DNA from: Flavobacterium sp. N2820
GTDB lineage: Bacteria > Bacteroidota > Bacteroidia > Flavobacteriales > Flavobacteriaceae
Direction of reading: 5' to 3'
Assembly: GCF_025947285.1 (NCBI RefSeq)
Contig: NZ_CP110008.1
Span: forward strand, 1-64,000
Length of the DNA stretch: 64,000 bases
Shown: one piece after another, positions 18,467 to 50,302 of the stretch
How the letters are laid out: each line of letters begins with the position of its first letter
Numbering within the stretch: the first letter of the stretch is position 1
The notes under the pieces: generated by a model
What the model was told of the DNA's origin: nothing
Database searches by the model: none
Seen by the model: the letters and a program-made list of their open reading frames with translations, nothing else
Program-made: the position numbers and the translations under genes

Positions 18467-18510
18467 ATGACTTTTGTCATATTAAAGGATGTTTTTGTCT
18501 TTTAAATTTG
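18467..18510 (+). promoter_or_regulatory. nirK promoter: Crp/Fnr box, Rrf2-like motif, -7 element
   Basis: Palindrome ATGACTTTTGTCAT at 18467-18480, motif AAAGGATGTTTTTGTCTTT at 18484-18502, then TAAATTTG at 18503-18510. The palindrome centre is 29.5 bp upstream of the -7 element, placing it near -41 as for class II activators. The second motif fills the space to the -7 element, where a repressor would block polymerase. Confidence 0.8.
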
Positions 18511-18568
18511 TTTCATAAAACAGTAATAAAAAACTGTTTATAACCAAAAAAAAACTAAAACTTTTATC

Positions 18569-20038
18569 ATGAGTAATCTTATTAAAAAATCTATTGTTGT
18601 ATTTGTAGCTTGTATCACAATTATTGCATGTAAACAGAACAACGACAAAAATTCTAACTATGCTGATATTTCAGTTGGTGATGAAATGATTGCAGAATTA
18701 ACAGCTCCTCCATTTGTACCCAAGCCAGTTGGAGATCGTTCTGCAAAAAAATTAATAGTAAACATGGAAATTAAAGAAATCGAAGGTGAAATGGCTGACG
18801 GTGTAAAATATGTTTACTGGACTTTTGGAGGCAGCGTACCAGGAAGTTTCATTAGAACAAGGGTGGGTGACGAAGTAGAATTTACATTAAAAAATCACCC
18901 AGACAACAAATTGCCTCACAACATCGATTTACATGCGGTTACAGGACCTGGCGGAGGAGCTGCTTCTTCATTAGTAGCACCAGGCCATGAAAAAACATTT
19001 AACTTTAAATGTATTAATCCTGGATTGTATGTGTACCATTGTGCAACAGCTCCAGTGGGAATGCACATTGCTAACGGAATGTATGGTTTAATTTTGGTGG
19101 AACCGGAAGGTGGTCTACCTCCAGTTGACAAAGAATACTACGTAATGCAAGGTGATTTTTATACGAAAGGTAAATATGGAGAACCAGGAATGCAACCTTT
19201 TGACATGACAAAAGCAGTAGATGAGCATGCAGATTACGTAGTCTTTAACGGAAAAGTAGGTGCTTTAACAGGTGATAAAGCTTTAACCGCTAAAGTAGGA
19301 GAAACAGTTAGAATTTACATGGGTAATGGTGGTCCAAACTTAGTTTCATCCTTTCATGTTATTGGTGAAATTTTTGATAAAGTACATATAGAAGGTGGTG
19401 ACATGATCAACAAAAATGTGCAAACTACTTTAATTCCTGCTGGTGGTTCAGCTATTGTAGAGTTTAAAGTGGATGTTCCTGGAACATTTATTTTAGTAGA
19501 CCACTCTATTTTTAGAGCATTCAATAAAGGAGCCTTAGGAATGTTAAAAGTTGAAGGTGCCGAAAATTCTAAAATTTATTCAGGAACAACTCAAGAGGGA
19601 ATTTATCATCCAGAAGGAGGTACTATTCAAAATATGCCAAAATCCGGAAAAGGAAATGACGTTGTGATGAATAAAACACTTGCACAACAAATGACAGATG
19701 GTAAAAACATTTATTCAAGAACTTGTTTTGCATGTCACCAATCAGAAGGTCAAGGTATCCCATCTGCTTTCCCTCCTTTAGCTAAATCTGATTTCTTAAA
19801 TGCTGACTCAAATAGAGCGATAAATGCAGTACTTCATGGGTTAAGTGGCGAAATTACAGTTAATGGTAAAAAATTTAATTCCGTAATGACAAGTCAAAAC
19901 CTTACGGATCAAGAAATTTCAGATGTTTTAACTTATGTATACAACAGTTGGGGAAATAACAAAATGAAAGTTTCTCCAGAAATGGTTAAGACACAGAGAG
20001 CAAAACCAGCTCCAAAGACTAATAATGACATACATTAA
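18569..20038 (+). CDS. nirK: Copper nitrite reductase with C-terminal cytochrome c
   Basis: 489 aa. It reduces nitrite to NO in the periplasm. A lipoprotein signal ends at C21. Two cupredoxin domains carry all ligands: type 1 copper H117, C158, H166, M171; type 2 copper H122, H157, H312; catalytic D120 and H263. A C-terminal c-type heme domain begins near residue 365 with CFACH (386-390). The fusion lets the enzyme take electrons through its own heme. It is first of a four-gene plus-strand operon with nirV-like, sco and porin genes. Its promoter has a Crp/Fnr palindrome. Confidence 0.95.
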
Positions 20039-20053
20039 TACAAAAATTAAATA

Positions 20054-20839
20054 ATGGAAACTCAATTTATTAAACGATTTCACCACTGCCTAATTTTATT
20101 ATTTTGGGTTTCCATTTCTTTTTCTCAGGCGCCTGAAGATATGGTAACTATAGGTGCTGGAAGTTACGTTCCTTTATATGGAACAGCAGATAAAAAACCA
20201 GTTAAAATTCAATCTTTCTTCTTAGATGTTTATCCTGTTACAAATCAAGATTATTTAGAGTTTACTAAATTAAATCCAAATTATAGAAAGTCTAAAATTA
20301 AACGATTATTTGCTAATACTACTTATTTATATGAATGGAGTGGAGATTTGAGTTTTGGGAATTTAAATTCAAATGCACCAGTTACAAATGTGTCTTGGTT
20401 TGCAGCAAAAGAATATTGTGAATGTCAAGGTAAAAGACTACCAACATTAGACGAATGGGAATATGTTGCCATGGCTGACGAAAGAAGAAAAGATGCCAGA
20501 ACTAAAGAAGAGTTCAATAAGTATATTTTGAGTTGGTACGAGAAAAATAAAACGTATAATAATTCAGTAGGAAAAACATTCAAAAATTATTGGGGTGTTT
20601 ACGATATACATGGATTAGTTTGGGAATGGACTTTCGATTTTAACAGTATTTTTTTATCAGGCGAATCTAGAAAAGATAAAGATACTGATAAAGATTTATT
20701 CTGTGGAAGCGGTTCTGTCAATGCAACCGATTTAATGAATTATGCCGCTTTTATGCGCTATGCTTTTAGAGCCAGTATAAAAGCGAATTATACTACAAAA
20801 AATTTAGGCTTCAGATGTGCCAAAAACATTTCTGATTGA
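20054..20839 (+). CDS. NirV-like SUMF1/FGE-family exported protein
   Basis: 261 aa. A signal peptide ends near SFSQ (residue 25). The FGE-sulfatase fold is seen in VYPVTNQDYLEFTKL, APVTNVSWFAAKEYCEC, RLPTLDEWEYVAM, VYDIHGLVWEWTFDF and NLGFRCAK. Proteins of this family called NirV accompany nirK in other bacteria; their role is not settled, and maturation of nitrite reductase has been suggested. It lies 15 nt after nirK. Confidence 0.75.
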   Translation: METQFIKRFHHCLILLFWVSISFSQAPEDMVTIGAGSYVPLYGTADKKPVKIQSFFLDVYPVTNQDYLEFTKLNPNYRKSKIKRLFANTTYLYEWSGDLSFGNLNSNAPVTNVSWFAAKEYCECQGKRLPTLDEWEYVAMADERRKDARTKEEFNKYILSWYEKNKTYNNSVGKTFKNYWGVYDIHGLVWEWTFDFNSIFLSGESRKDKDTDKDLFCGSGSVNATDLMNYAAFMRYAFRASIKANYTTKNLGFRCAKNISD

Positions 20840-20862
20840 GTTTTCAATTAAAAAAATAAGTT

Positions 20863-21456
20863 ATGAAAAAAATGATTTTACTAGTAATTGCCTCTCTTTT
20901 TATTTTAGGATGCAATTCAAAAGAAGAAAAACAAGATATAAAAGATAAACCTATAACCGATTTGTCAATTTATAATTTGCCTGAAAAATGGACAAATCAA
21001 GACGGAAAAGATATTGAACTCAAAGAATTAAGAGGAAAAGTATTAGTTATGGTGATGATTTATACTTCATGCAAATCAGCTTGCCCAAGATTAGTAGCTG
21101 ATATGCGAAATATTGAATCTAAAATTCCAAAAGAATACAAAGATAAAGTTCAATTGGTTTTAGTAAGTATTGACCCAATAGTTGACACTCCAAAACGTTT
21201 GAAAGAATTCTCTATCGAAAATAAAATGACAGGAAATCAATGGGTTTTCTTGCGTTCAAATGAAGAAAATACCAGAGAATTCGCTGCAGTTTTGGCAGTA
21301 AATTATAAAAAAATATCTCCAATAGATTTTTCACATTCCAATATCATAAGTGTATTTAATGCGGAAGGGGAATTGGCATTCCAACAAGAAGGCTTGGGAG
21401 TCAGTTACGATAAAACGGTTTCAAAAATCAAAGATGAAGCAGCTAAAATAGAGTAG
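20863..21456 (+). CDS. SCO1/SenC-family copper chaperone lipoprotein
   Basis: 197 aa. Lipobox ILGC near residue 17. A thioredoxin-like fold carries the copper-binding CxxxC in YTSCKSACPRL and a downstream histidine in DFSHSNIISVF. SCO proteins deliver copper to CuA or act as thiol reductants. Here the place after nirK suggests copper loading of NirK, or of NosZ CuA. It is in the nirK operon, 23 nt after the nirV-like gene. Confidence 0.85.
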   Translation: MKKMILLVIASLFILGCNSKEEKQDIKDKPITDLSIYNLPEKWTNQDGKDIELKELRGKVLVMVMIYTSCKSACPRLVADMRNIESKIPKEYKDKVQLVLVSIDPIVDTPKRLKEFSIENKMTGNQWVFLRSNEENTREFAAVLAVNYKKISPIDFSHSNIISVFNAEGELAFQQEGLGVSYDKTVSKIKDEAAKIE

Positions 21457-22888: not shown

Positions 22889-23611
22889 CTAATAAAACTT
22901 ATTTTGTAAAACAATGGCACTCGGAAATAAAATATTATTTTCTAAATGAATGTGCGTATGTAAATCCGCTTCAAATTCTTGTAACATTTGAAATGTTACT
23001 TTGTAAGTGTTGCATGCTTCAGCAGGGGGAGTGTAATTGTTTGATAATTCCACAATTTTTTCAAATCGTTCACCTTCATTTTCATGTTCCTCCATCATCA
23101 TAGCAATTGGGTTAGTTACCGAACCAAATCCTGGATTGCTTATTGCCTGATTATTTCTATTGGCTTCTACCATCTTTTTAACAAATGGAAACAAAATTAA
23201 TTCTTCTTTTTTCATATGTTGTGTTAACTCATCTGCGCTTCTTTTGAATAATTTTTTAATCTCGAAAAGCTCTGGATGTTTTTCACCATGTACTTGCTCT
23301 AGCTTGATTAAGAACGAAAGTAATTGTGGGATTTTCTCTTCTACATAACGGTGGTGCTTTTTCTCAATATAATCAATTAGTAAATCCAATTCCCAAGATT
23401 TAAAATCTATAATTTGATTGTTATTGTTTAAAGTAGCCCTTTCTAATTCTTCTAAAAGTAAAAATTTATCAATTCCTTTTTTCGTACATACCTCGTCAAT
23501 AGTTCGGTTTCCTTTACAACAAAAATCGATACCTCGTTGACTAAAAACACTTGCAGTTCTATAATCGTCTGCCACTATTGTTCCTATTGTTTTGTTTGAA
23601 TCTATAACCAT
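22889..23611 (-). CDS. ric: Di-iron iron-sulfur cluster repair protein RIC (ScdA/YtfE)
   Basis: 240 aa. The N-terminal ScdA domain includes VFSQRGIDFCCKGNRTIDEV with the CC pair. The C-terminal hemerythrin-like domain has HH in IEKKHHRYVEE, H in QVHGEKHPELF, H in LTQHMKKEE, H in MMEEHENEGERF and H in LHTHIHLENNILF as iron ligands. RIC repairs Fe-S clusters damaged by NO and can bind NO. It is divergent from norC and shares one Crp/Fnr palindrome with it. Confidence 0.9.
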   Translation of the reverse strand: MVIDSNKTIGTIVADDYRTASVFSQRGIDFCCKGNRTIDEVCTKKGIDKFLLLEELERATLNNNNQIIDFKSWELDLLIDYIEKKHHRYVEEKIPQLLSFLIKLEQVHGEKHPELFEIKKLFKRSADELTQHMKKEELILFPFVKKMVEANRNNQAISNPGFGSVTNPIAMMMEEHENEGERFEKIVELSNNYTPPAEACNTYKVTFQMLQEFEADLHTHIHLENNILFPSAIVLQNKFY

Positions 23612-23636: not shown

Positions 23637-23739
23637 CAAAATTATCCTTAATTAATATTTTATTATATGATTCTAATCATATTTTATGTTTTTTATTGTT
23701 GGTTATTTTGCCATACATTAAAGGATAAAAACATCTTTT
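23637..23739. promoter_or_regulatory. Divergent ric/norC promoter region
   Basis: Palindrome ATGATTCTAATCAT at 23667-23680. Rightward, TTATTTTG starts 29.5 bp from its centre (23703-23710). Leftward, TAATTTTG starts 29.5 bp from the centre (23644-23637). One symmetric site thus serves both genes. AAAGGATAAAAACATCTTT at 23720-23738 lies in the norC leader, fitting a repressor site. Confidence 0.8.
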
Positions 23740-23771: not shown

Positions 23772-24206
23772 ATGTTATCAAAATCACAAGCACGAACATT
23801 TTTTTTAGGTGGAACAGTAGTTACTTTTTTAGTTTTTATTGGTTTAACTATCTATTCGTTTATGCCTAAAAATGATCAAACTTATCATGATAAGATTGAT
23901 GCAAAAGTTATTCGGGGTAAAGAAATTTGGGAATCGAATAATTGTATGGGTTGTCATACCATACTTGGTGAAGGTGCGTATTATGCTCCTGAATTAACAA
24001 AAGTTATAGAAAGAAGAGGAGAAGGCTATGTAAAAGCCGTTTTACAATCTCCTGTTCCTTGGGGGCCAAAAGGCAGAAAAATGGTTAAATACGAAATGAA
24101 TGATGCCGATGCAGAAGCAATGGTTGCTTACTTTAAATGGATTGGCAACATTGATTTGAATGGTTTTGATCGAGTGGTTTCTCCTTTAGCTAAAGACAAA
24201 AAATAA
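23772..24206 (+). CDS. norC: Nitric oxide reductase cytochrome c subunit
   Basis: 144 aa. One N-terminal membrane anchor (about residues 10-30), then a periplasmic class I cytochrome with CMGCH (about residues 59-63) in NNCMGCHTILGEGAYYAPEL and a methionine ligand in KMVKYEM. NorC passes electrons to NorB. It is 16 nt upstream of norB and under the Crp/Fnr palindrome shared with ric. Confidence 0.93.
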   Translation: MLSKSQARTFFLGGTVVTFLVFIGLTIYSFMPKNDQTYHDKIDAKVIRGKEIWESNNCMGCHTILGEGAYYAPELTKVIERRGEGYVKAVLQSPVPWGPKGRKMVKYEMNDADAEAMVAYFKWIGNIDLNGFDRVVSPLAKDKK

Positions 24207-30035: not shown

Positions 30036-30049
30036 ATGATTATAATCAT
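30036..30049 (+). promoter_or_regulatory. Crp/Fnr-type palindrome upstream of the 596-aa gene
   Basis: ATGATTATAATCAT, perfect in both halves. A weak -7 candidate (TTTATTTA) is at the usual spacing, and a better TTATTTTG lies 15 bp further (30087-30094), so the site may act from about -56. Confidence 0.6.
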
Positions 30050-30137: not shown

Positions 30138-31928
30138 ATGACATTACAAAAAAACATACACACATTTCATATTCCAGTTATGGGATTAGCTTTCACTATT
30201 GATAGCCCAGTGCGAGTGGCGCAATACGGAATCGATTCTGTAATTTCTATTATGGATGACGATTTGATTGAAAAAATGACCGCTTTTTATGCCGAAAAAT
30301 TCAAGCAACCTTATGAAGAAATTTCACAAAAAGTAGATGATTTTAGAGCTAAAAGAATAACAAATTACTTGAATTTACTCGATACAGTTGTTACTCAAAA
30401 GTTCGAAGCATTCAAATCGGAATTGGTAGAGAAAAGAACGCAATTAGAAGATTTTATGGCCATTTTGCCAACAACTTCTGAATTGAAAATCAAGTTAGAT
30501 CATTTAATCGATTCAGGAAAAAACAACATAATTGAATTAAAAACGATTCTTGACAATCATTTTAATCCAGGAAGTATTGATGTGAATATCATGACGAAAA
30601 TCGACAAGGATAATTTTATTGATGACGAACAATTGCCTGTAATCTATAACGATGCACATGCGGCTTTAAGAGGATTTGTAAACAGTATTACAAATTCATC
30701 TGTAGTTTTTTCTGCTGGAATGAATCCGAGATTGTACAGTTATATGGAAACTTTTAATGCCTTTTATCCGAATACAAACGGACAATTTCAGAAGAAAATT
30801 ATTCTAAAAGTGAGTGATTTTCGTTCGGCGATGATTCAAGGAAATTTTTTAGCTAAAAAAGGACTTTGGGTTTCTGAGTATCGAATAGAATCAGGACTAA
30901 ACTGTGGCGGACACGCATTCGCAACAGATGGATTTTTATTAGGTCCAATTCTAGAAGAATTTAAAAACAAGAAAGACGAATTGATTCAATCGGCATATAA
31001 ACTATTTATTAATGCTCTAGCATCAAAGAATAAAACAGTTCCAAACGAACCACCTATTTTAAAAATCACAGTTCAAGGAGGAGTTGGAACAGCGGAAGAA
31101 CACCAGTTTTTATTAGATCATTATCAAGTGGATGCTGTGGGTTGGGGTTCACCATTTCTTTTAGTTCCAGAAGCCACTTCAGTTGATATAGAAACCAGAA
31201 AATTGTTAGCCGACGCCAAAGAAAAAGATTTGTATTTGAGTAACATTTCGCCTTTAGGTGTTCCGTTCAATACGATTAAAGGTATGACAAATGATTTTTA
31301 TAAAAGTCAACGCATCACTTCAGGAAAAGCAGGAAGTTCGTGTCCGAAAAAATATTTAGCGTTAAGTAAAGAATATAAAAAAGAAGGCACTTGTTCGGCA
31401 TCAAAAAAACATCAAGACAAGAAAATAGAAGAACTAGAAGCAAAACGCAATAGTATTTCCTTCGAAGCTTACACAAAAGAATACAATTCAATCACTGAAA
31501 AATCTTGTTTGTGTGTGGGATTAGCAAATGCTAGTCATATCGAATTAGGTATCCCAATTAAGGGTCAAGCACAAGGAGTAGTGGTTTGTCCTGGACCAAA
31601 TATGGCATATTTTTCAAGAGAATTTTCTTTAAAAGAGATGATTCAACACATTTACGGAAAAAAAGAAATAGAAAATCACACCGACAGACCAAATATGTTT
31701 ATAAAAGAATTAGGCTTATACGTTTCGTATTTGTCGAACCAAATTAATGAATCGTTTGAAATAACATCTCAACAAATTAAAAAATGGGAAACATTTAAAG
31801 CAAATCTTTTAGATGGAATTGAATATTACAAATCGATTTTTCAAGAAAAGAACTCAAAAATTCAAAATGATATTTTACAATTGGAATTACAATTAAAGAA
31901 AATAGAATTCAATACAATTCCGGTTTAA
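30138..31928 (+). CDS. Unrecognised 596-aa protein in the NO regulon
   Basis: A cytosolic protein without signal or membrane segments. Residues about 1-160 are helical. The middle has GLNCGGHAFATDGFLLG, then ITVQGGVGTAEEHQFLLDHY and VDAVGWGSPFLLVPEAT, which look like strands and phosphate-binding loops of a TIM-barrel (FMN-type) enzyme. Cysteines follow in GSSCPKKY, EGTCSA, KSCLCVG and VVCPGPNM and could bind an Fe-S cluster. The C-terminus is a coiled coil. It has its own Crp/Fnr palindrome and lies between norF and the nos genes. A flavin/Fe-S oxidoreductase is only a guess. Confidence 0.7.
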   Translation: MTLQKNIHTFHIPVMGLAFTIDSPVRVAQYGIDSVISIMDDDLIEKMTAFYAEKFKQPYEEISQKVDDFRAKRITNYLNLLDTVVTQKFEAFKSELVEKRTQLEDFMAILPTTSELKIKLDHLIDSGKNNIIELKTILDNHFNPGSIDVNIMTKIDKDNFIDDEQLPVIYNDAHAALRGFVNSITNSSVVFSAGMNPRLYSYMETFNAFYPNTNGQFQKKIILKVSDFRSAMIQGNFLAKKGLWVSEYRIESGLNCGGHAFATDGFLLGPILEEFKNKKDELIQSAYKLFINALASKNKTVPNEPPILKITVQGGVGTAEEHQFLLDHYQVDAVGWGSPFLLVPEATSVDIETRKLLADAKEKDLYLSNISPLGVPFNTIKGMTNDFYKSQRITSGKAGSSCPKKYLALSKEYKKEGTCSASKKHQDKKIEELEAKRNSISFEAYTKEYNSITEKSCLCVGLANASHIELGIPIKGQAQGVVVCPGPNMAYFSREFSLKEMIQHIYGKKEIENHTDRPNMFIKELGLYVSYLSNQINESFEITSQQIKKWETFKANLLDGIEYYKSIFQEKNSKIQNDILQLELQLKKIEFNTIPV

Positions 31929-32039: not shown

Positions 32040-32105
32040 AAAGATAAAAACATCCTTTTTTATGATTGTAATCATACTTTTAAAGCGCTCAATTTCAGAA
32101 ATTTG
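32040..32105 (+). promoter_or_regulatory. nos promoter: Rrf2-like motif, Crp/Fnr box, -7 element
   Basis: AAAGATAAAAACATCCTTT at 32040-32058, palindrome ATGATTGTAATCAT at 32062-32075, and GAAATTTG at 32098-32105. The centre-to-element distance is again 29.5 bp. Here the Rrf2-like motif is upstream of the palindrome and in the reverse sense to nirK. Confidence 0.75.
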
Positions 32106-32132: not shown

Positions 32133-32612
32133 ATGAACAAATCAATTTTACTTGTTTTATCTCTTGCTTTAGCTATAGCATGTGGTAAAAAAGAATCATC
32201 TGCTGAAGACAATTATCAGCCAGGTGGAGGTGAAGCAACAACAGAAGCTGCTGATCCGGCTTCGTATGATCCAAAACGTGGTGAAGGAAAATTCGACACT
32301 GTTGAATTAGGCGCAACATTAGACCAAGCGATGGCAACAAAAGGTGAAGAAGTTGCAGGTGTAAAATGTACATCATGTCATAAAATGACGGATGAAAAAT
32401 TAGTGGGGCCAGGTTGGAAAGGCGTAACTGAAAGAAGAACGCCTCAATGGATTATGAATTTCATTACCAATCCAGATCCTATGATTGACAAAGATCCAGA
32501 AGTGCAAGCTCAACTTGAGATTTGTTTGGTTCGTATGCCTAACCAAGGTGTTTCTGATGATGAAGCCAGAGGAATTTTGGAATACATGCGTCAAAACGAT
32601 GGTGTGAAATAA
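32133..32612 (+). CDS. Cytochrome c lipoprotein of the nos cluster
   Basis: 159 aa. Lipobox IACG near residue 17, an acidic low-complexity linker, and one heme site CTSCHK near residue 80 with KLVGPGWKGV after it and a methionine in VRMPNQGV. It is the likely electron donor to NosZ in clade II systems of Bacteroidetes. It lies 63 nt before the nosZ start and shares its promoter. Confidence 0.85.
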   Translation: MNKSILLVLSLALAIACGKKESSAEDNYQPGGGEATTEAADPASYDPKRGEGKFDTVELGATLDQAMATKGEEVAGVKCTSCHKMTDEKLVGPGWKGVTERRTPQWIMNFITNPDPMIDKDPEVQAQLEICLVRMPNQGVSDDEARGILEYMRQNDGVK

Positions 32613-32675
32613 ATGAATAAGGATGTTGGATCGGGTGAAAGTGACTCAACATCCCAAATTTTAATTACATATATC

Positions 32676-34661
32676 ATGAAAAATAAATTTGTACAAGCAA
32701 TTCTAGTAATTGTATTAGGAAGTGCTTTGGTTACTTCATGTAAACCAAAAAGTTCAGGGGATGCCGTGAGTGGAGATGCTGCCCAACGTGTCTATGTGGC
32801 ACCTGGTAAATACGATGAATTTTATAATTTCGTATCTGGTGGTTTTAGTGGTCAAATGAGTGTTTATGGGCTTCCAAGCGGTAGAATGTTGAAGGTTGTT
32901 CCTATTTTCTCTGTTGATCCTGAAAGTGGATGGGGGTTTAGTGAAGAAACAAAACCTATGTTAAACACTTCAGAAGGTTTTATTCCTTGGGATGATCAAC
33001 ATCACTTAGAGTTATCTCAAACTAACGGTGAAGTTGATGGTAGATGGATATTTGCTAATGCAAACAACACACCACGTATCGCAAGAGTTGATTTAAAACG
33101 TTTTAAAACTTCAGAAATTATTGAGTTACCAAACTCTGCTGGTAACCACTCTTCGCCTTTTATTACTGAAAACACAGAATATGTAGTTGCTGGAACACGT
33201 TTTGGTGTACCTGGGGATTACGATAAAGGAGATGTGCCAATTAATACGTATAAAGAAAATTTTAAAGCTCACATCAGTTTTATTAAAGTAGATAAAGAAT
33301 CTGGTAAAATGGATTTATCTTTCCAATTACGTTTACCAGGTGTAAATTTTGACCTTTCCCATGCTGGTAAAGGAAAATCTCATGGATGGTTTTTCTTCAC
33401 TTGCTACAATTCTGAACAAGCAAATACCCTTTTAGAAGTAAATGCTTCTCAAAATGATAAAGATTTTATCATGGCTGTCAATTGGAAAAAAGCTGAAGAA
33501 TATATCAAAGCTGGTAAAGGTAAAATTGAAAAAACAAAATATGCACATAACACATGGAATGACGAAACGCATACAGGAACTTCAGTAATTAAAGATGAAG
33601 TTTTAGTTTTAGACGCTATGGCAATGAAAGATATTTGTTATTTAATGCCATGCCCGAAATCACCTCATGGTTGTGATGTTGACCCAACAGGTGAATATAT
33701 AGTGGGTTCTGGTAAATTAGCAGCATTAATTCCAGTATTTAGCTTTGATAAAATGGTAAAAGCTATTGGTAAAAAAGATTATGAAGGTGATTATGAAGGA
33801 ATTCCAGTTTTAAAATACAACTCTGTTCTTCATGGAGAAGTTCAAAAACCAGGATTAGGACCTTTACATACTGAGTTTGATGGGAAAGGAAATGCTTATA
33901 CTACATTCTTCGTATCTTCTGAAGTAGTGAAATGGGATATTAAAACATTAAAAGTTTTAGATAGAGTTCCAACTTATTACTCGGTAGGTCACTTATGTAT
34001 TCCAGGTGGTGATTCAAAAAAACCTTTCGGAAAATATCTAATTGCGTATAACAAAATTACGAAAGACAGATATTTACCAACTGGCCCAGAATTAACACAA
34101 TCTGCTCAATTATATGATATTAGTGGTGATAAAATGAAGCTATTATTAGATTTCCCAACTATTGGAGAACCACATTATGCTCAAGCAGCTCCAGCTGATT
34201 TGATTCGTAATAATGGACAGTTGAAATTTTATGATTTAAAAAACAATAAACATCCAAGAGTTGCCAAAGGTGAAAAGGAAACAAAAGTAGTTAGAGAAGG
34301 AAATAAAGTACATGTTTACATGACAATGATTCGTTCACACTTTTCTCCAGATAATATTGAAGGAATTAAAGTAGGAGATGATGTATATTTCCACATTACA
34401 AACCTTGAACAAGATTGGGATGTTCCTCATGGATTCTCAATTAGAAGAGCACAAACAGCTGAATTACTAATTATGCCAGGTGAGACTGCAACTTTAAATT
34501 GGAAACCATCTAAGGTTGGTATTGTTCCATTTTATTGTACAGATTTCTGTAGTGCATTACACCAAGAAATGTCAGGATACATTAGAGTTTCTCCTGCAGG
34601 AAGTAATGTGCCAATAAGTTATAGCTTAGGTACAAATTTACCAGCTTCTTCAACAAAATAA
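32676..34661 (+). CDS. nosZ: Clade II nitrous oxide reductase
   Basis: 661 aa from the ATG giving MKNKFVQAILVIVLGSALVT; the in-frame ATG at 32613 would add 21 non-signal residues. A Sec-type lipoprotein signal (VTSC) replaces the Tat signal of clade I. The seven-bladed propeller carries CuZ histidines (GKSHGWFFFTCYNSEQ, YAHNTWNDETHTG, CPKSPHGCDVDPTG, PLHTEFDGKGNAYT, SVGHLCIPGG, PHYAQ). The C-terminal cupredoxin has the CuA motif CTDFCSALHQEM. It reduces N2O to N2 in the periplasm. Confidence 0.95.
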   Translation: MKNKFVQAILVIVLGSALVTSCKPKSSGDAVSGDAAQRVYVAPGKYDEFYNFVSGGFSGQMSVYGLPSGRMLKVVPIFSVDPESGWGFSEETKPMLNTSEGFIPWDDQHHLELSQTNGEVDGRWIFANANNTPRIARVDLKRFKTSEIIELPNSAGNHSSPFITENTEYVVAGTRFGVPGDYDKGDVPINTYKENFKAHISFIKVDKESGKMDLSFQLRLPGVNFDLSHAGKGKSHGWFFFTCYNSEQANTLLEVNASQNDKDFIMAVNWKKAEEYIKAGKGKIEKTKYAHNTWNDETHTGTSVIKDEVLVLDAMAMKDICYLMPCPKSPHGCDVDPTGEYIVGSGKLAALIPVFSFDKMVKAIGKKDYEGDYEGIPVLKYNSVLHGEVQKPGLGPLHTEFDGKGNAYTTFFVSSEVVKWDIKTLKVLDRVPTYYSVGHLCIPGGDSKKPFGKYLIAYNKITKDRYLPTGPELTQSAQLYDISGDKMKLLLDFPTIGEPHYAQAAPADLIRNNGQLKFYDLKNNKHPRVAKGEKETKVVREGNKVHVYMTMIRSHFSPDNIEGIKVGDDVYFHITNLEQDWDVPHGFSIRRAQTAELLIMPGETATLNWKPSKVGIVPFYCTDFCSALHQEMSGYIRVSPAGSNVPISYSLGTNLPASSTK

Positions 34662-34662
34662 T

Positions 34663-34824: not shown

Positions 34825-35409
34825 ATGAAAGAAAACAATTTAACAATACTTTCTAAAGTTTTGTTAGTACTAATAGGATTATTATTTATTGGTTCATTAT
34901 TTGTGCCCATGTGGAGAATTGAATTAGATGCTCCACAATACCCAGAAGGATTAATGTTACAACTTCATGCAAATAAAATTGGTGGAGATGTTGAAATAAT
35001 AAATGGGTTAAATCACTACATTGGTATGGCAACTTTACATTCAGAAAACTTTTTTGAATTTACAGTTCTTCCTTATATTTTTGGTGCTTTTGCATTAACT
35101 TCATTAATTTTAGTATTCATTAACAATAGAAAAGCTGTTTTTGGCTTTCTTGTAATATTTATACTCTTTGTAATTCTTGCAGGATTTGATTTTTATAGAT
35201 GGAATTACGAATATGGACATAATCTTGATCCAAATGCCGCTATAAAAGTGCCAGGCATGGCCTATCAACCTCCATTAATTGGGTATAAGCAATTGTTAAA
35301 TTTTGGTGCTTATTCAATACCAGATACAGGTGGTTGGATGCTCATAGTTGCTGGGGGGATATTATTTGCAATAGTTTTAAAAGAATTCAAATTTAAAAAA
35401 TCAACATAA
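34825..35409 (+). CDS. nos-cluster membrane protein, 194 aa
   Basis: Four membrane segments (about residues 10-30, 80-97, 105-125, 165-185), with a periplasmic loop bearing LHANKIGGDVEIINGLNHYI and a second loop with AAIKVPGMAYQPPLIGY. Proteins like this follow nosZ in clade II clusters and may correspond to NosB, but that link is not proven here. It overlaps the nosL stop-start by 1 nt. Function unknown, presumably in NosZ maturation or electron supply. Confidence 0.65.
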   Translation: MKENNLTILSKVLLVLIGLLFIGSLFVPMWRIELDAPQYPEGLMLQLHANKIGGDVEIINGLNHYIGMATLHSENFFEFTVLPYIFGAFALTSLILVFINNRKAVFGFLVIFILFVILAGFDFYRWNYEYGHNLDPNAAIKVPGMAYQPPLIGYKQLLNFGAYSIPDTGGWMLIVAGGILFAIVLKEFKFKKST

Positions 35410-35828
35410 TGAAATGGTTATCTTATTTTTTAATTTTATTAGTATCGGTTTCTTGTGTAACAAAAGAAGCAGAACCAATTAAGTTAAATTCAGACGCATG
35501 TGAGTTTTGTAAAATGAAAATTTCAGACGGAAAATTCGGAGCAGAATTAATTACTAATAAGGGAAGAATTTATAAGTTTGATGATATGCATTGTATGATT
35601 AGTTATCACAAAGAAAATCGAACAACAAATATTCAATCTTTTTATATTCATGATTTTAGTGAAAATAATATATTGATTTCTGCTGAAACTGCTTTTTATG
35701 CGAAAGGAGGGGAGATTAATAGCCCAATGCGTGGCAATATAATTGCAGTAAAGACAGAGGAAGAAGCAAATACAGTAATGGAAAAATATAAAGCAAATCC
35801 AACATCTTGGAGTGAAATAATTAAATAA
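35409..35828 (+). CDS. nosL: NosL copper chaperone lipoprotein
   Basis: 139 aa. Lipobox VSC near residue 16. The family motif is seen in DACEFCKMKISDGKFGAEL and KFDDMHCMISYH, whose methionines and cysteines bind Cu(I). NosL delivers copper to NosZ with NosDFY. It is coupled to the upstream membrane gene by a 1-nt overlap. Confidence 0.9.
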   Translation: MKWLSYFLILLVSVSCVTKEAEPIKLNSDACEFCKMKISDGKFGAELITNKGRIYKFDDMHCMISYHKENRTTNIQSFYIHDFSENNILISAETAFYAKGGEINSPMRGNIIAVKTEEEANTVMEKYKANPTSWSEIIK

Positions 35829-35839
35829 AATCAAATCAA

Positions 35840-37069
35840 ATGAAATATTTTTTAATTATTTTCCTTTTTTTTTCACTTTCTCTAAAAGCTACCACTATTC
35901 ACGTAGGTAAAAAATATGCGATTAAGTCTGTTAAAAGAGGGATTAGTTTAGCTAAAGTGGGTGATACAGTTATTGTACATAGTGGATGGTACAAAGAAGG
36001 AAATATAATAATTGATAAAAAAATTGTTTTTTTAGGAAAAGATTTACCTGTTTTAGATGGTGAAAAAAAGCATGAAGTTTTATCAATACACGCTGATAGT
36101 GTTGTAGTTGATGGTTTCAAGGTAATACGAAGCGCTTATGCAACTATTACAGATCCATGCGGCATCAAAGTTTACAATAAAAGTCATGTTTTAATTCAAA
36201 ATAATGTTTTAGACGATAATTTTTTTGGAATATATTTACAAAATTCTCAAAACTGTATTATTAAAAATAATACACTAAAGGCATATGGAAAAGAAGAGCA
36301 AAAATTAGGCAACGGAATACATTGTTGGAAATCAAAAGATATTTTAATTATTGCTAATCGAATTGAAGGTCACCGAGACGGAATATATTTCGAATTTGTT
36401 ACGAGTTCCGTAATTTGGAGAAATATTGCTAATAACAACATACGATACGGATTACATTTCATGTTTTCAAATGACGATGCTTATATTACTAATGTTTTTA
36501 AAAATAATGGTGCTGGAGTAGCTGTTATGTTTACCAAAAATGTAAAAATGTTCAATAACTATTTTGAGGAAAATTGGGGAGATTCGGCCTATGGGTTATT
36601 GCTGAAAGAAATTTCAGATAGTTATATTTTCAATAATCGATTCGCTCAAAATACTTCCGGAATTTACATGGAAGGAACTTCCCGAATTAAAGTAGAAAAA
36701 AACGTTTTTAAATCAAATGGTTGGGGAATGAAAATCCAAGCTAGTTGTATGGATAACGAAATTGTAAACAATAATTTTTTAAAAAACACTTTTGATATTA
36801 GTACCAATGGTAGCTTGGTTTTAAACACATTCAATGCTAATTATTGGGATAAATATGAAGGTTATGATTTAAATAAAGATGGGATGGGCGACGTTCCTTA
36901 TCATCCGCTCAGTTTATTTGCTGTACTTACCGAAAACACGCCTTCTGCCATGTTGCTGTATCGAAGTTTTATGATAACGCTTTTAGATAAATCTGAAAAA
37001 GTATTACCTAGTATAACACCAGATAATTTTATTGATAATAAGCCCTTAATGAAGTCAATGCCACTATGA
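35840..37069 (+). CDS. nosD: NosD periplasmic beta-helix protein
   Basis: 409 aa with a signal peptide (to LKAT). Parallel beta-helix (CASH) repeats are evident, for example NIIIDKKIVFLGKDLPVLDG, NVLDDNFFGIYLQNSQNCII and NIRYGLHFMFSNDDAYITNV. NosD with the NosFY ABC unit passes copper toward NosZ. It overlaps nosF by 4 nt. Confidence 0.92.
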   Translation: MKYFLIIFLFFSLSLKATTIHVGKKYAIKSVKRGISLAKVGDTVIVHSGWYKEGNIIIDKKIVFLGKDLPVLDGEKKHEVLSIHADSVVVDGFKVIRSAYATITDPCGIKVYNKSHVLIQNNVLDDNFFGIYLQNSQNCIIKNNTLKAYGKEEQKLGNGIHCWKSKDILIIANRIEGHRDGIYFEFVTSSVIWRNIANNNIRYGLHFMFSNDDAYITNVFKNNGAGVAVMFTKNVKMFNNYFEENWGDSAYGLLLKEISDSYIFNNRFAQNTSGIYMEGTSRIKVEKNVFKSNGWGMKIQASCMDNEIVNNNFLKNTFDISTNGSLVLNTFNANYWDKYEGYDLNKDGMGDVPYHPLSLFAVLTENTPSAMLLYRSFMITLLDKSEKVLPSITPDNFIDNKPLMKSMPL

Positions 37070-41530: not shown

Positions 41531-41605
41531 CAAATTAATCTCAATAAAATTAAACAAAATATGACTGAAATCATATTAAACGCTTATTTATTTCATTTAA
41601 ATTTG
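41531..41605. promoter_or_regulatory. Divergent promoter of the Crp/Fnr gene and copper module
   Basis: Palindrome ATGACTGAAATCAT at 41561-41574. Leftward TTAATTTG begins 29.5 bp from its centre (41538-41531). Rightward a perfect TAAATTTG begins 30.5 bp from the centre (41598-41605), ending only 4 nt before the ATG at 41610, so that transcript may be leaderless. Confidence 0.75.
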
Positions 41606-41609
41606 TACT

Positions 41610-41984
41610 ATGAAGCAATTACTAGTCATACTAACCCTTTTAATGTTTTTAAAGCCAATACTTCCGGTTTTTGAATACTTGGTTAATTATGATTATATTG
41701 TTAATGAACTTTGTGAAAATAAATTGAAACCTGAACTAAAATGTAATGGTAAGTGTCATTTAACAAAAGAATTAGCCAAAGCTTCAGAAGGTAATTTAAA
41801 AAATTCTTCTGATAAAAAAATAAATTTCGAACAAACCGAAATTGTATTTTTTCAAGAAATTAAACCTATTGATATTAGACAAATTTATTTTTTAAATAAA
41901 ACTTCTATTGGTAACAATTATTCTAACTTATACTTTCACTTGAATGATTGTGCCTTCTTTCATCCGCCTACATTTATTTCTTAA
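41610..41984 (+). CDS. Small secreted protein with CNGKCHL motif
   Basis: 124 aa. A hydrophobic N-terminus (LLVILTLLMFLKPILPVF) acts as a signal or anchor. The motif LKCNGKCHLTKELAKASE has two cysteines and a histidine suited to metal binding, and the end is HLNDCAFFHPPTFIS. I recall similar small proteins beside TonB metal receptors in Bacteroidetes, with no known role. Place and ligands point to copper. Its -7 element lies 4 nt from the ATG. Confidence 0.65.
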   Translation: MKQLLVILTLLMFLKPILPVFEYLVNYDYIVNELCENKLKPELKCNGKCHLTKELAKASEGNLKNSSDKKINFEQTEIVFFQEIKPIDIRQIYFLNKTSIGNNYSNLYFHLNDCAFFHPPTFIS

Positions 41985-42098
41985 TTAAATATTGGATTTT
42001 GTTAGTTCAATTTTCTGAATTAACCCACTCAACTTATATCATAATTTATCTGAATAAAATGATTTCAGATATAATTACAATCACTTTAATTAAAAAAA

Positions 42099-42944
42099 AT
42101 GAAAACTTCAATAAAATATATTGTAGCGTTATTTGCTATGGCCATAACTTTTGTGTCTTGTTCAAACGATGATGAAACTATTGTAAATGAATTAGACGGA
42201 ATCACTAAATTTAAAGAAATTACAAACGATACTCATACAATAGAATTGTATTCTCAAATGGGAAGTTTAGAACAAGGATACAATGAAATTAGCTTAAGAA
42301 TAAAAGAAAACACAAGTAGTACTTACATCAACAATGCAGAAGTGAGTTGGACACCATTAATGCATATGACTTCAATGACGCATTCTTGTCCGTATTCTGC
42401 GGTGGAAAAAGTTACTGAAAACGGGACATTGTACGAAGGATATATTATGTTCCAAATGGCGCAAAACACAACTGAATATTGGGATTTAAAAATAGATTAC
42501 ACCATTAACGGTATTGATTATACAGCTACTGATGTAATTGATGTCCCTGCTACAGTAAAGCGTAAAGTAAATACATTCACGGGTTCAGATGGAACTAAAT
42601 ATTTAGTTGCTTTAATTGATCCAAATTCGCCAAAAGTAGCAATCAACGATATGAAAATAGGGGTATGGAAAATGCAAAATATGATGACTTTCCCTATTGT
42701 AGATGGTTATACTGTAAAAATAGATCCTAGAATGCCAAGTATGGGAAATCATTCTTCTCCAAATAATATTCACGCTACACAATCTATTTCTGGTGGATTG
42801 TATAATGGAAAATTATCGCTAACAATGACTGGTTATTGGAAAATAAATCTACAATTAGCTAATGCAGATGGAACTGTTTTGAAAGGTGAAGAAATCACTG
42901 AAACATTAACATCAAGTAGTATTTTCTTCGAAATTGAGTTTTAA
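42099..42944 (+). CDS. Met/His-rich lipoprotein of the copper module
   Basis: 281 aa. Lipobox VSCS near residue 21. A Met/His cluster PLMHMTSMTHSCP lies near residues 86-98, and another PRMPSMGNHSSPN near residues 209-221. These fit Cu(I) binding. The folds look like two YtkA-like immunoglobulin-type domains. It stands between the CNGKCHL protein and the NosA-like receptor, so it may hand copper on in the periplasm. Function inferred. Confidence 0.65.
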   Translation: MKTSIKYIVALFAMAITFVSCSNDDETIVNELDGITKFKEITNDTHTIELYSQMGSLEQGYNEISLRIKENTSSTYINNAEVSWTPLMHMTSMTHSCPYSAVEKVTENGTLYEGYIMFQMAQNTTEYWDLKIDYTINGIDYTATDVIDVPATVKRKVNTFTGSDGTKYLVALIDPNSPKVAINDMKIGVWKMQNMMTFPIVDGYTVKIDPRMPSMGNHSSPNNIHATQSISGGLYNGKLSLTMTGYWKINLQLANADGTVLKGEEITETLTSSSIFFEIEF

Positions 42945-43008
42945 TTTTTATCTCTAAAAAAGGTTGTTAAAATCTTTTATTAATGACCTTTTTCAAATTC
43001 TTTATATC

Positions 43009-44994
43009 ATGAAAAAATTATTTGTATTTTTTCTATCACTTTCGTTTTGTTTTGCTCTTAGTCAAGAAGTGGATTCTATTAAAATCAAAGAGCTCAAAGA
43101 AGTTTTAGTAGTGGGAACAAAATCGACTTTGCATGAAAAGCAAACCAAAATTCTAGCCACTTTAGACGAATTGTTACAAAAATCAAGCAAAGTAGATTTA
43201 ATCAAAAGAGGCGCTTATGCTTGGGAACCTATTATCAATGGAATGGCTACAGAACGTACAGTGATAACCATTGATGGAATGCGGATCTTTGGCGCTTGTA
43301 CCGATAAAATGGACCCTGTGACTTCCTATGTCGAAGTTTCTAATTTATCAGAAGCTACGATTTCATCAGGGCAACAAGGCAGTAGTCATGGAAATACGAT
43401 TGGAGGTTCGATTGATTTAAAAAGAAGCCAACGCCAATTTACTAATGCAGGTTGGGAATTCTTTGTCAACTCAGGTTATGAATCGAATAACCGTCAAAAA
43501 ATCATTGGTTCGGCCATCAATTATGCGGATAGTTTATTTTATGTTGATACTGATGTCATGTTTCGAGATGCCGAAAATTATAGAGCGGGAAACAATAAAG
43601 AAATTGAGTTTTCACAATTCAGAAAATTGAATTTATCCGCTACTTCTGGCTATCGATTGGCACCCAATAAAAACATTGAAGCTTCAGTAATTTTTGATAG
43701 AGCTACGGATGTCGGTTATCCTGCGTTGCCAATGGATGTTTCTCTAGCGGAAGCTTTAATTGCTTCAGTAAAATTCAATTACAAACCTAATTTGGAGCAA
43801 ATTGATAATTGGGAAACCAAACTTTATTTCAATACAATTACGCACACTATGGACGACACTAAACGTCCTGATGTTCCTATTCACATGGATATGCCAGGTT
43901 GGAGTGATACCTATGGCTTTTATTCGAAAGTAAATGGAAAATATAAAAAACATCATTTTTTAGCCACTTTGAATTCGTTTTACAATCGTTCCGTTGCCGA
44001 AATGACGATGTATCCGTCCAATCCAAACGAAAATTTAATGTTCATGTACACTTGGCCTGATGTTCGTACGTTGTATTCTGGAATTTATATGGAAGATAAT
44101 TTTGAAATCAATTGCCATTCTAATTTGAAAGTGACTACAAATTTAGGGTTTCATAATAACAATGTTGCGAGTGATTTCGGTTTACAAAGTTTACAGATTT
44201 TTTATCCTGAAATGGAAGCTTCAAATTCTCGATTCCTAAAAAGTATTTCGACTAATTATTTCTATAACAAAGAAGGAATTTCGTATGGATTCGGAATGGG
44301 ATATGGGGAACGTGCTCCATCGGTTTCTGAAGGTTATGGGTTTTACTTATACAACAGTTTTGACGGATTTGATTACATTGGTAACCCTAATTTAAAAAAT
44401 GAGAAATCATTGGAAGGAAATGCCAATATTGGATTCAAAAACGAAAAATGGAATACCAAATTATCGGCTTCTTATTTTCATATTTATGATTATATCATAG
44501 GAATTCCAGATGCTTCGGTTGCACCCATGACAATTGGAGCCAATGGAATTAAAGTGTATACGGCTTTAGATTACGCTACTATTTTTTCTTCCGATTTTAC
44601 CGTAAGTTATCAAATTTCAGACGCATGGATTTGGAAAGGACAATTCGTATATAACTTAGGAAAGGACAATAAATTCAACGGATTACCTTTTATGAGTCCA
44701 TTTAATTATATGGCTTCTTTAGGATTTAGGCCTAGAAAATTCAGTTTGGAATTGCAAGTAAAAGGAAATGCAAAGCAAACCGAATACAATGCTTTTTATG
44801 GAGAAGATAAAACGCCAAATTATGCGATTATAAATGTTAATTGTGGTTATAAATTTATCTTCGAGAAGTCAAAATTAATGCTAAATACAGGTATTGAAAA
44901 CATATTTGACACTTACTACACTACATATACAGATTGGAAAAACCTGCCTAGAATGGGACGAAATGTCTTTATGAATTTGATGTTTCAGTTTTAA
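43009..44994 (+). CDS. NosA/OprC-like TonB-dependent copper receptor
   Basis: 661 aa from the ATG giving MKKLFVFFLSLSFCFALSQE (signal peptide); an upstream ATG at 42964 adds a non-signal stretch. The plug domain has GAYAWEPIINGMATERTVIT and GMRIFGACTDKMDPVTSYVE. The CTDKMDP string with its Cys and Met is a hallmark of OprC/NosA copper channels. The 22-strand barrel ends in FMNLMFQF. It likely imports copper for NirK and NosZ. Confidence 0.88.
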   Translation: MKKLFVFFLSLSFCFALSQEVDSIKIKELKEVLVVGTKSTLHEKQTKILATLDELLQKSSKVDLIKRGAYAWEPIINGMATERTVITIDGMRIFGACTDKMDPVTSYVEVSNLSEATISSGQQGSSHGNTIGGSIDLKRSQRQFTNAGWEFFVNSGYESNNRQKIIGSAINYADSLFYVDTDVMFRDAENYRAGNNKEIEFSQFRKLNLSATSGYRLAPNKNIEASVIFDRATDVGYPALPMDVSLAEALIASVKFNYKPNLEQIDNWETKLYFNTITHTMDDTKRPDVPIHMDMPGWSDTYGFYSKVNGKYKKHHFLATLNSFYNRSVAEMTMYPSNPNENLMFMYTWPDVRTLYSGIYMEDNFEINCHSNLKVTTNLGFHNNNVASDFGLQSLQIFYPEMEASNSRFLKSISTNYFYNKEGISYGFGMGYGERAPSVSEGYGFYLYNSFDGFDYIGNPNLKNEKSLEGNANIGFKNEKWNTKLSASYFHIYDYIIGIPDASVAPMTIGANGIKVYTALDYATIFSSDFTVSYQISDAWIWKGQFVYNLGKDNKFNGLPFMSPFNYMASLGFRPRKFSLELQVKGNAKQTEYNAFYGEDKTPNYAIINVNCGYKFIFEKSKLMLNTGIENIFDTYYTTYTDWKNLPRMGRNVFMNLMFQF

Positions 44995-45022: not shown

Positions 45023-45460
45023 TTATAGTGATTTCAAGAAAGTTTCTCCTGATTTAATTCCTAAAGCTAATTCTTCTAAATTCGTAGTTTCTAGCATGCG
45101 CGCTAATTCATCTCGAATACTTTTAAATTTATCATGTACTGGACAAGGATGATTTTCAGAACATTGTGATAAACCTAAGCCACAGCCATGAAATACTGCG
45201 TCTCCGTCAATTGCATTAACAATTTCTACTAGAAAAGTTTTTTTAATTCTTTTTTTAGGAATATAAAATCCACCATTTACACCTTTTACGGATTCAATAA
45301 TTTCTGCTTTAACTAGTATTTGTAAAATTTTGGCAGTAAATGCTTGTGGCGAATCGATTTCTTTAGCAATATCAACAAAACCTACCTTTTTTTCTTCTAA
45401 GGAATGTTTGGCAATAAATATGGTAGCTCTTATAGCATAATTACATGATTTTGAAAACAT
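45023..45460 (-). CDS. Rrf2-family (NsrR-like) regulator 1
   Basis: 145 aa. The winged helix spans residues 1-75 (SKSCNYAIRATIFIAKHS, ... ILVKAEIIESVKGVNGGF). Three cysteines in HGCGLGLSQCSENHPC are placed as Fe-S ligands of NsrR/IscR-type sensors. NsrR proteins lose repression when NO attacks the cluster. It lies downstream of the NorB-like gene and has its own Crp/Fnr palindrome. About 50% similar by eye to the second Rrf2 protein. Confidence 0.85.
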   Translation of the reverse strand: MFSKSCNYAIRATIFIAKHSLEEKKVGFVDIAKEIDSPQAFTAKILQILVKAEIIESVKGVNGGFYIPKKRIKKTFLVEIVNAIDGDAVFHGCGLGLSQCSENHPCPVHDKFKSIRDELARMLETTNLEELALGIKSGETFLKSL

Positions 45461-45489: not shown

Positions 45490-45533
45490 CAAATATACAA
45501 TGTAATTAGTATTAATAGGATGATTTTTATCAT
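45490..45533 (-). promoter_or_regulatory. Promoter of Rrf2 gene 1
   Basis: Palindrome ATGATTTTTATCAT at 45520-45533 with a perfect minus-strand TATATTTG at 45497-45490, 29.5 bp from the centre. The wider sequence AGGATGATTTTTATCATC also resembles the Rrf2-like motif, so both regulators might bind here. Confidence 0.75.
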
Positions 45534-49774: not shown

Positions 49775-49775
49775 T

Positions 49776-49793
49776 AAAGGATGTTTTTATCTT
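49776..49793. promoter_or_regulatory. Rrf2-like motif at the nadA start
   Basis: AAAGGATGTTTTTATCTT on the plus strand, between nadA and Rrf2 gene 2, ending 1 nt from the nadA ATG. It is the same motif as at nirK, norC and nos. Confidence 0.6.
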
Positions 49794-49810
49794 CTATATA
49801 AGTAAATTTT

Positions 49811-50245
49811 TTAAAGCTTAAGAAAAGTCTCTCCAGTATTGAATTCACTAATTAAATCAAGAAGGGAAGTCTCTCTAAGGGTTTTTTTCAAATTTTCACG
49901 TAATGGCTTATATTTATGATGAAATGGACAAGGTTGTTTGTCGGAACAATCATGAAGTCCTAAACTGCATCGGTCAAATAAGTCATTTCCGTCGATAGCT
50001 TTTACCAGCTGGTCTAATTTTATTTGTTTCAATTGTGCTTTTTCAATTTCAAATCCACCACCATTTCCTTTAATCGATTTTATGATGTCGGCTTTTACTA
50101 AACGCTGTAATATTTTAGCTGTAAAAGGTTCTGGCGATTCAATTTTTCTAGCAATATCCCGAATACCACAACGTTTACCTGCAGACGATTCTGAGGCAAT
50201 GTAAATTGTAGCTCGTATGGCATATTCACAGGTTTTCGAAAACAT
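49811..50245 (-). CDS. Rrf2-family (NsrR-like) regulator 2
   Basis: 144 aa. Winged helix (SKTCEYAIRATIYIASESSA ... RLVKADIIKSIKGNGGGF) and three cluster cysteines in DRCSLGLHDCSDKQPCPFH. It stands directly upstream of nadA and has a Crp/Fnr palindrome in its promoter. It is a candidate for binding the AAAGGAT motif. It lies 33 nt after the nrdG stop. Confidence 0.85.
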   Translation of the reverse strand: MFSKTCEYAIRATIYIASESSAGKRCGIRDIARKIESPEPFTAKILQRLVKADIIKSIKGNGGGFEIEKAQLKQIKLDQLVKAIDGNDLFDRCSLGLHDCSDKQPCPFHHKYKPLRENLKKTLRETSLLDLISEFNTGETFLKL

Positions 50246-50259
50246 ATTTAAAATTTACA

Positions 50260-50302
50260 CAAAGTTAGGGATTTTAAATCATCGAAATATGATTTTAGTC
50301 AT
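50260..50302 (-). promoter_or_regulatory. Promoter of Rrf2 gene 2
   Basis: Palindrome ATGATTTTAGTCAT at 50289-50302, inside the 3' end of nrdG. Minus-strand TAACTTTG at 50267-50260 is 28.5 bp from its centre. The leader to the ATG would be only about 10 nt. Confidence 0.7.

Follow-up and report, generated by a model that had tools for sequence, protein, structure and literature searches.

Activators of the Crp/Fnr family act from a class II position at -41.5, as FNR does at its class II promoters in E. coli. Many of the clade II nitrous oxide (N2O) reductases and nitric oxide (NO) reductases of soils and treatment plants are carried by Bacteroidota, and to our knowledge the control of these genes has been little described. 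In denitrifying Pseudomonas and in beta-proteobacteria, the Crp/Fnr activator DNR has operators (CTTGATnnnnATCAAG) before nir, nor and nos; NnrR (ctTTGcgnnnncgCAAag) exerts the same Crp/Fnr control over these genes in alpha-proteobacteria, according to the relevant sections of PMC1274295. Bacteroides and Porphyromonas have HcpR and HcpR2 (GTAACnnnnGTTAC and other motifs), Crp/Fnr regulators of nitrogen-oxide stress in Bacteroidota, by the same source. Here we examine the first 64,000 nucleotides of contig NZ_CP110008.1 of Flavobacterium sp. N2820 (the window), in which a palindrome stands at a nearly fixed distance from a promoter element before nirK, norC, nos and other genes, among them that of a Crp/Fnr-family regulator, P0001.

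The pattern ATGAYTNNNRTCAT, which reads as the dyad ATGAY-N4-RTCAT, gave 12 strand-hits at seven places in the window, while shuffled sequences gave a mean of 0.30 and at most 3. Compared with the FNR box as given in PMC1274295 (TTGAT-N4-ATCAA), it has the same length and centre and a changed first base. Eight promoters in the window combine the palindrome with a TAnnTTTG element, perfect in five and with one mismatch in three, that begins 28.5 to 30.5 bp from the palindrome centre. The gap between palindrome and element is 22 at nirK, ric, norC, nos, the crp gene and the first of two Rrf2 genes (Rrf2-1), where the element's first T thus stands 29.5 bp from the palindrome centre. When the eight promoters are aligned, ATGA, TCAT and TTTG are the only parts that do not vary.

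The nirK palindrome (ATGACTTTTGTCAT, 18467..18480, plus strand) is followed by a perfect element (TAAATTTG, 18503..18510) and by the copper nitrite reductase gene (18569..20038; TIGR02376 over cut-off), whose product shows weak cytochrome c similarity in its C-terminal part, with scores under the cut-off. One palindrome (ATGATTCTAATCAT, 23667..23680) is common to the divergent ric and norC genes with a gap of 22 both ways. On the minus strand it faces a perfect element (TAATTTTG, 23637..23644) and ric (22889..23611), which encodes an iron-sulphur repair protein of ScdA/YtfE type (TIGR03652 over cut-off). On the plus strand it faces a one-mismatch element (TTATTTTG, 23703..23710) and a norC-like cytochrome c gene (23772..24206) that scored over the cut-off of no model and is named from an earlier, sequence-only reading and from the next gene, which is COX1-like (24223-25560). 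The nos operon (32133..37069, plus strand) encodes a cytochrome c, a Sec-type NosZ, the product of a gene at 34825, NosL (PF05573) and NosD, with TIGR04246 and TIGR04247 over cut-off; its palindrome (ATGATTGTAATCAT, 32062..32075) precedes a one-mismatch element (GAAATTTG, 32098..32105).

A further palindrome (ATGACTGAAATCAT, 41561..41574) lies between the crp gene, which encodes P0001 (40901..41488, minus strand), and a putative copper module on the plus strand (41610..44994: a 124-amino-acid protein, a YtkA-domain protein and a TonB-plug protein), whose copper role is as named in the sequence-only reading. The gap is 22 to the one-mismatch element of crp (TTAATTTG, 41531..41538) and 23 (30.5 bp) to the perfect element of the copper module (again TAAATTTG, 41598..41605). 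Rrf2-1 (45023..45460, minus strand; PF02082, TIGR00738) has a perfect element (TATATTTG, 45490..45497) and the least conserved palindrome among the sites followed (ATGATAAAAATCAT, 45520..45533). The second Rrf2 gene (Rrf2-2, 49811..50245, minus strand) has a gap of 21 (28.5 bp) between its palindrome (ATGACTAAAATCAT, 50289..50302), which lies within the 3' end of an upstream radical-SAM open reading frame (ORF; 50279-51013), and its element (TAACTTTG, 50260..50267). It is followed by nadA, nadB, a cytochrome c gene and a COX1-family (NorB-like) gene, and the five genes (45556-50245) form one apparent operon from the 50289 site. The seventh palindrome (ATGATTATAATCAT, 30036..30049, plus strand), to which the sequence-only reading had assigned no distance, has only a poor element at a gap of 22, with two mismatches (TTTATTTA). 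The seven palindromes were all recovered where the sequence-only reading had placed them, and its distances hold on re-measurement. Its further claim that two divergent pairs have equal spacing each way is true of ric and norC and fails for crp and the copper module.

The same reading had held that this regularity is unlikely by chance, and genome-wide counts bear it out. In the complete 3,055,624-base genome the palindrome alone gave 24 strand-hits at 17 places, and the reversed control gave 5. Palindrome, N21-23 and TAnnTTTG together gave 7 matches, five of them in the window, versus 0 in the reversed control. A scan at gap 22 only, tolerating two mismatches, gave 53 matches versus 17 in the control. 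Nineteen Flavobacterium genomes, one of them without a match, gave 128 matches versus 26 reversed when gaps of 8 to 38 were allowed. The gap was 22 in 76 of the 128, 23 in 17, 21 in 6 and elsewhere in 29. Nine of these 29 make up a minor second peak at gaps 8-9, and no more than 4 fell at any other gap.

Mapped transcription starts of F. psychrophilum, as reported in part of PMC9723704, place TAnnTTTG at -12 to -5. Counted from -12, 29.5 bp puts the operator centre at about -41.5, with the start position taken from this other Flavobacterium species. The window promoters thus have an operator near -41.5 with a fixed spacing to the -10 equivalent, six at 29.5 bp and the others at 28.5 and 30.5 bp.

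Conservation was examined in relatives of P0001 with flanks of up to 10 kb, taken from titled public contigs. These gave 28 loci, 27 of them clear relatives (64-95% identity, mostly named Flavobacterium), and the layout was counted as kept at one mismatch or fewer. F. aquaticum and F. cucumis are among the species with P0001 in their loci. It was kept before crp at 26 of 27 loci, before the copper module at 21 of 22 and before nos at 18 of 18. All 18 nos sites have T at position 6 in both halves, and these loci belong to one clade, so they are not independent. Upstream of crp, the alignment shows the palindrome distinct against diverged flanks. The Rrf2-2 site was found in 12 of 18 rows, including all 10 clear orthologues (97-99%); rows at 50-57% identity are matches to the other Rrf2 gene.

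A wider set was drawn from 249 Flavobacteriaceae genomes, of which 35, 164 and 48 had a match for the three genes sampled (norC, nos cytochrome and nirK); for each gene it holds one locus per genome from the 30 best matches. The layout was present at gaps 21-23 in 62 of the 90 upstream regions (norC 19, nos 19 and nirK 24, of 30 each), with gap 22 in 58 and gap 23 in 4. Outside 21-23, no gap from 0 to 60 occurred in more than 3 regions, and Markov resampling gave a mean of 0.02 of 90. Without the N2820 genome, which supplies 3 of the 90 loci, the layout was present in 59 of 87 (55 at gap 22, 4 at gap 23). The remaining 28 of 90 regions lack it with one mismatch allowed. NosZ is next door at 24 of the 30 nos loci; the layout was found in 19 of these 24 and in 0 of the 6 where NosZ is absent next door. 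The observation is confirmed: the genes form a genuine class II Crp/Fnr regulon with predicted operators, and relatives conserve it. The class II activator proposed by the sequence-only reading is well supported by the centre near -41.5, the sharp spacing peak and the conservation in relatives, and the site that it had noted in the Crp/Fnr gene's own promoter is the one kept at 26 of 27 orthologous loci.

Eight proteins of the genome match the cNMP-binding domain, and two of them are relevant here. P0001 (195 amino acids) belongs to the Crp/Fnr superfamily, with a cNMP-binding fold and a Crp-type helix-turn-helix (PF00027, PF13545 and PF00325 over cut-off). P0002 is a second, FNR-like Crp/Fnr protein encoded outside the window (834866-835543); its gene has ccoNO nearby and a ccoI-like heavy-metal ATPase gene as its divergent neighbour. 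Sites of the same core and spacing, presumed to be P0002 sites, precede the genes for cbb3 oxidase, the ccoI-like ATPase, hemN and others. Of 11 aligned rows, one of them a duplicate, 10-11 retain each of the P0002 cysteines C4, C7, C29, C53, C59 and C106. Among P0001 relatives no cysteine is kept in 80% of rows, so an FNR-like iron-sulphur sensor is unlikely. Neither protein reached the cut-off of the Fnr model (228 bits; P0001 54.1, P0002 83.5), and P0001 scored 59.4 bits against a cut-off of 266 for the CRP equivalog NF008732. The P0001 profile matched the DNR structure 3dkw (2.7e-19) and the best CRP (6.9e-20) about equally. Naming P0001 as DNR or CRP from solved-structure sequences was dropped because of this tie, and DNR orthology is thus not established. 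An argument from a haem ligand was also dropped, since H119 is not kept in all relatives.

The recognition helix reads RVETVIR in 54 of 56 P0001-relative rows and TATESxIR in 9 of 10 FNR-like rows. The two groups share Glu-x-x-Ile-Arg and differ just before it, which would fit a common ATGA core with a difference further in. E. coli FNR has the same Glu and Arg, and Ser212 where P0001 has Ile. Longer P0001-family proteins also occur: two examples (L106 1866-2924 and L123 1565-2620) fuse a receiver domain to a Crp/Fnr protein (PF00072, PF00027, PF13545). Long forms, defined by an open frame of about 340-397 amino acids with the receiver domain checked in these two examples, were present in 91 of the 249 Flavobacteriaceae genomes, often with T-type sites nearby.

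The two kinds of site were told apart by position 6 of the half-site, as T-type (ATGAYT..ARTCAT) or A-type (ATGAYA..TRTCAT); the nirK palindrome has one half of each. Over the 249 genomes the T-type promoter pattern gave 71 sites in 51 genomes with 0 reversed matches, and the A-type pattern occurred in 157 genomes with 2 reversed matches. Presence of the proteins was scored at E 1e-10 for the P0001 family and E 1e-40 for the FNR-like protein. T-type sites occurred in 39 of 111 genomes with the P0001 family versus 12 of 138 without it (odds ratio 5.7, p=4.7e-7). Nine genomes without a listed P0001-like match were counted as absent here, and leaving them out gave p=4.2e-7; G014, whose sole listed match is its FNR-like protein, was also counted as lacking the family. 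A-type sites occurred in 127 of 156 genomes with an FNR-like protein versus 30 of 93 without (odds ratio 9.2, p=1e-14). The T-type link to the P0001 family was seen in P0002-positive genomes (29/73 vs 8/83) and in P0002-negative ones (10/38 vs 4/55), and A-type sites in P0002-positive genomes did not differ significantly by P0001 family (62/73 vs 65/83). T-type sites also adjoin P0001-family genes: 20 of 71 lie within 20 kb of one (17 without the N2820 genome), against about 0.8 expected at an assumed 3.5 Mb per genome, and three lie within 70 bp of a gene for the short form. Only 2 of 71 lie within 20 kb of an FNR-like gene, about 0.6 being expected.

Within the N2820 genome, sites collected with a pattern neutral at position 6 (at most one mismatch, gap 22) showed the same difference. 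The five window sites have 8T/2A and the 14 outside sites 6T/19A/3G (p=0.006); the 10 outside sites directly upstream of a gene have 5T/15A (p=0.007 vs the window). Both halves are T in 3 of 5 window sites and in 0 of 14 outside. An earlier count for this genome (12T/2A vs 3T/13A) is not relied on, as the window sites had been picked with T in the pattern and the eight outside sites by hand, including one at 1398085 that lacks a nearby downstream gene. When promoters of the same target genes were compared, genomes with short P0001 gave 19T/18A at position 6 and those without it 22T/55A (p=0.022). Both halves were T in 5 of 22 promoters versus 0 of 40 with the N2820 genome included, and in 3 of 19 versus 0 of 40 without it (p=0.03).

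Of 68 T-type sites outside the N2820 genome, 61 were examined (58 with a downstream ORF, 3 without) and six more were read later, with G146:C212 excluded. Genes in relatives were named by BLAST to window or N2820 proteins or by reading of the N-terminus. T-type sites precede nirK (G030), norC (G038) and nos cytochrome genes (G041, G126, G076 and G174), with NosZ next door at all four of the latter loci, and also copper-module relatives (G054, G240). They occur at globin-like genes related to the one at window position 38576 (G033, and G096 at a distance of 307 bp). In G036 a P0001 relative is divergent to HPP and flavohaemoglobin-like genes (L100 991-1488 and 2-1012), with a T-type class II site. 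Forty A-type loci, hand-chosen among the matches listed, comprised 37 with an ORF (12 CcoS-like, 9 hemN, 2 nos cytochrome, 1 nirK, 1 norC and 12 others) and 3 without. The UspA-, CcoS-, OmpW-, YceI- and MlaE-like labels used here and below are names that we take to apply by recognition, not by search. A Fisher test on the denitrification targets of T-type sites is not relied on; it was framed after the list had been seen, and its 38 genomes include five not then read.

Taken as a whole, the sites probably make up a Crp/Fnr class II regulon in which P0001 is the likeliest activator of T-type sites and the FNR-like protein probably overlaps with it. The palindromes would be operators of Crp/Fnr-family dimers, from which sigma-A promoters of the Bacteroidota type would be activated at a class II position centred at about -41.5. 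A single regulon would then include nirK, ric, nor, nos, the copper module, the two Rrf2 regulators and the Crp/Fnr gene itself. P0001 would bind the T-type sites, activate its own gene and also act on the divergent copper genes. Its signal may be nitric oxide, judged from the targets alone, or low oxygen. Positive feedback is predicted from the site in its own promoter, and coupling of damage repair and copper supply to the regulon from the sites at ric, at the two Rrf2 genes and at the copper module. The FNR-like protein would read the same ATGAY-N4-RTCAT core with a preference for A at position 6, run micro-oxic genes (cbb3 oxidase, hemN) and probably overlap at some window promoters, a division of labour that is predicted from sequence.

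Several observations weigh against so simple a scheme. T-type sites are also found before many genes that have no known nitrogen-oxide link (hemN, UspA-like, OmpW-like, YceI-like and MlaE-like genes and many others). The Fisher tests ignore phylogeny, and most of the T-type link comes from genomes with receiver-domain fusions (33/91 vs 18/158), the short P0001 form alone being weakly linked (13/39 vs 38/210, p=0.049). A-type sites, too, go with the P0001 family in P0002-negative genomes (18/38 vs 12/55, p=0.013). At the same target genes the difference falls to 14T/17A versus 22T/55A (p=0.12) without the N2820 genome, which supplies three of the 22 short-form promoters. Furthermore, 40 of 62 class II sites at nirK, norC and nos are in genomes without the short form, and in six genomes (G090, G238, G101, G074, G105 and G210) class II sites stand before norC or nos although neither protein passed the thresholds used. 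Finally, the Rrf2-1 site is kept in only 9 of 18 relatives (9 of 13 close, 0 of 5 distant). A clean split of regulators by site type was dropped on the 249-genome and same-target-gene counts, and the weak split without the N2820 genome makes shared control likely. Outside the close clade the shift of denitrification promoters towards T is not clear, and genomes such as G090 may have another protein that reads the site. The sequence-only reading had named P0001 as the activator. In favour of this, the site in its own promoter is kept, and T-type sites track its family and often adjoin its genes; it is not settled, since there is a second FNR-like protein and class II sites occur in genomes without a P0001 orthologue. 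P0001 may thus share control with other regulators and may not be the main one in every genome.

The same facts bear on a rival in which P0002, with its conserved cysteines, is the real activator of the window promoters and P0001 its target or fine-tuner. The presumed P0002 sites of identical core and spacing, the class II sites that nirK, norC and nos carry where a genome has P0002 and lacks a short P0001 orthologue, and the weak position-6 difference at the same target genes would all suit it. Yet position 6 differs between window and outside sites within N2820 itself, and T-type sites show no clear association with P0002 (odds ratio 1.8, p=0.11) and occur in 10 of 38 P0001-family genomes that lack P0002. 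We consider this rival rather unlikely, and prefer P0001 as the activator of T-type sites with overlap by the FNR-like protein.

It is much less plausible still that an Rrf2/NsrR-type repressor from the window binds the palindrome. Both Rrf2 genes carry it in their own promoters, and the NsrR consensus listed in PMC1274295 (gATGyAT-N5-ATrCATc) also has ATG and CAT arms, but the half-site and N4 centre are those of the FNR box in that source with one change, and a fixed centre at -41.5 suits an activator. The Rrf2 proteins scored 21.5 and 35.4 bits against an NsrR cut-off of 182, and a repressor of this type was rejected on geometry and these scores. That AT-rich palindromes fall by chance near a common -7 element has next to no probability. 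Palindromes without the element are not rare, since the genome has another 10 of them and at least two fall within ORFs, but the full layout had control values of 0 in the genome and 0.02 of 90 in upstream regions, and it is conserved across genera; these controls and the spacing peak led us to reject chance.

Other observations concern the surroundings of these sites. Between the divergent P0002 and ccoI-like genes lies a single palindrome (834780-834840, L076). Towards the ccoI-like gene it is separated by 22 bases from a one-mismatch element; towards the FNR-like gene TAAATTTG follows at gap 9. This geometry would suit activation of the ccoI-like gene and autorepression of the FNR-like gene. 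Gaps of 8-9 recur in other Flavobacterium genomes, and the P0002 side of this palindrome is among the matches of the second spacing peak. The 596-amino-acid protein encoded downstream of the 30036 palindrome (30138..31928, plus strand) has no Pfam or NCBIfam match and forms a similar pair with one of about 600 amino acids encoded at 3033140-3034948, the two promoters having similar class II sites. The 3033140 promoter has a one-mismatch element in the gap 22 scan, and relatives of this gene (G115, G017) have A-type sites at that promoter. Downstream of the Crp/Fnr gene, a 405-amino-acid protein (39684-40901) has no Pfam match and no strong NCBIfam match.

Tentatively, and with more doubt than confidence, one might propose that denitrification promoters of Flavobacteriaceae hold to one rigid -41.5 layout and that its reader changes, being an FNR-like protein, cysteine-free P0001 or a receiver fusion, told apart mainly by A or T at position 6. 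If this is true, a promoter would drift from one regulator to another through one symmetrical base change and stay class II. With two regulators whose sites are seemingly one base apart, specificity and regulator exchange become directly testable. The fixed operator and -7 element also make a search pattern for anaerobic and NO regulons in raw sequence with almost no background (reversed matches: 0 in the N2820 genome and, over 249 genomes, 0 T-type and 2 A-type). A literature search, with most subscription papers outside its reach, found no such motif or denitrification regulator for Bacteroidota, and we claim no priority. PMC8510549, in its MalR section, reports no evidence of Crp/Fnr denitrification control in the organisms treated there (Ignavibacteria and others), and it reports overlapping specificity of DNR with an FNR paralogue for one bin.

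Compared with E. coli FNR class II promoters (FNR box TTGATnnnnATCAA), the window promoters share the operator length, the N4 centre and the centre near -41.5. They differ in having A instead of T as the first base, and P0001 relatives, unlike FNR, have no conserved cysteine. HcpR has another motif, and its predicted regulon in PMC1274295 is hcp only in most Bacteroides and P. gingivalis. The half-site of NnrR is also different. The DNR regulon differs in its half-site, TTGAT, from the core ATGAY-N4-RTCAT, whose first base is changed, and the window promoters have the -7 element TAnnTTTG of Bacteroidota sigma-A. The class II mechanism is a known one, and the content of the regulon resembles that of the DNR and NnrR regulons as they are described in PMC1274295.

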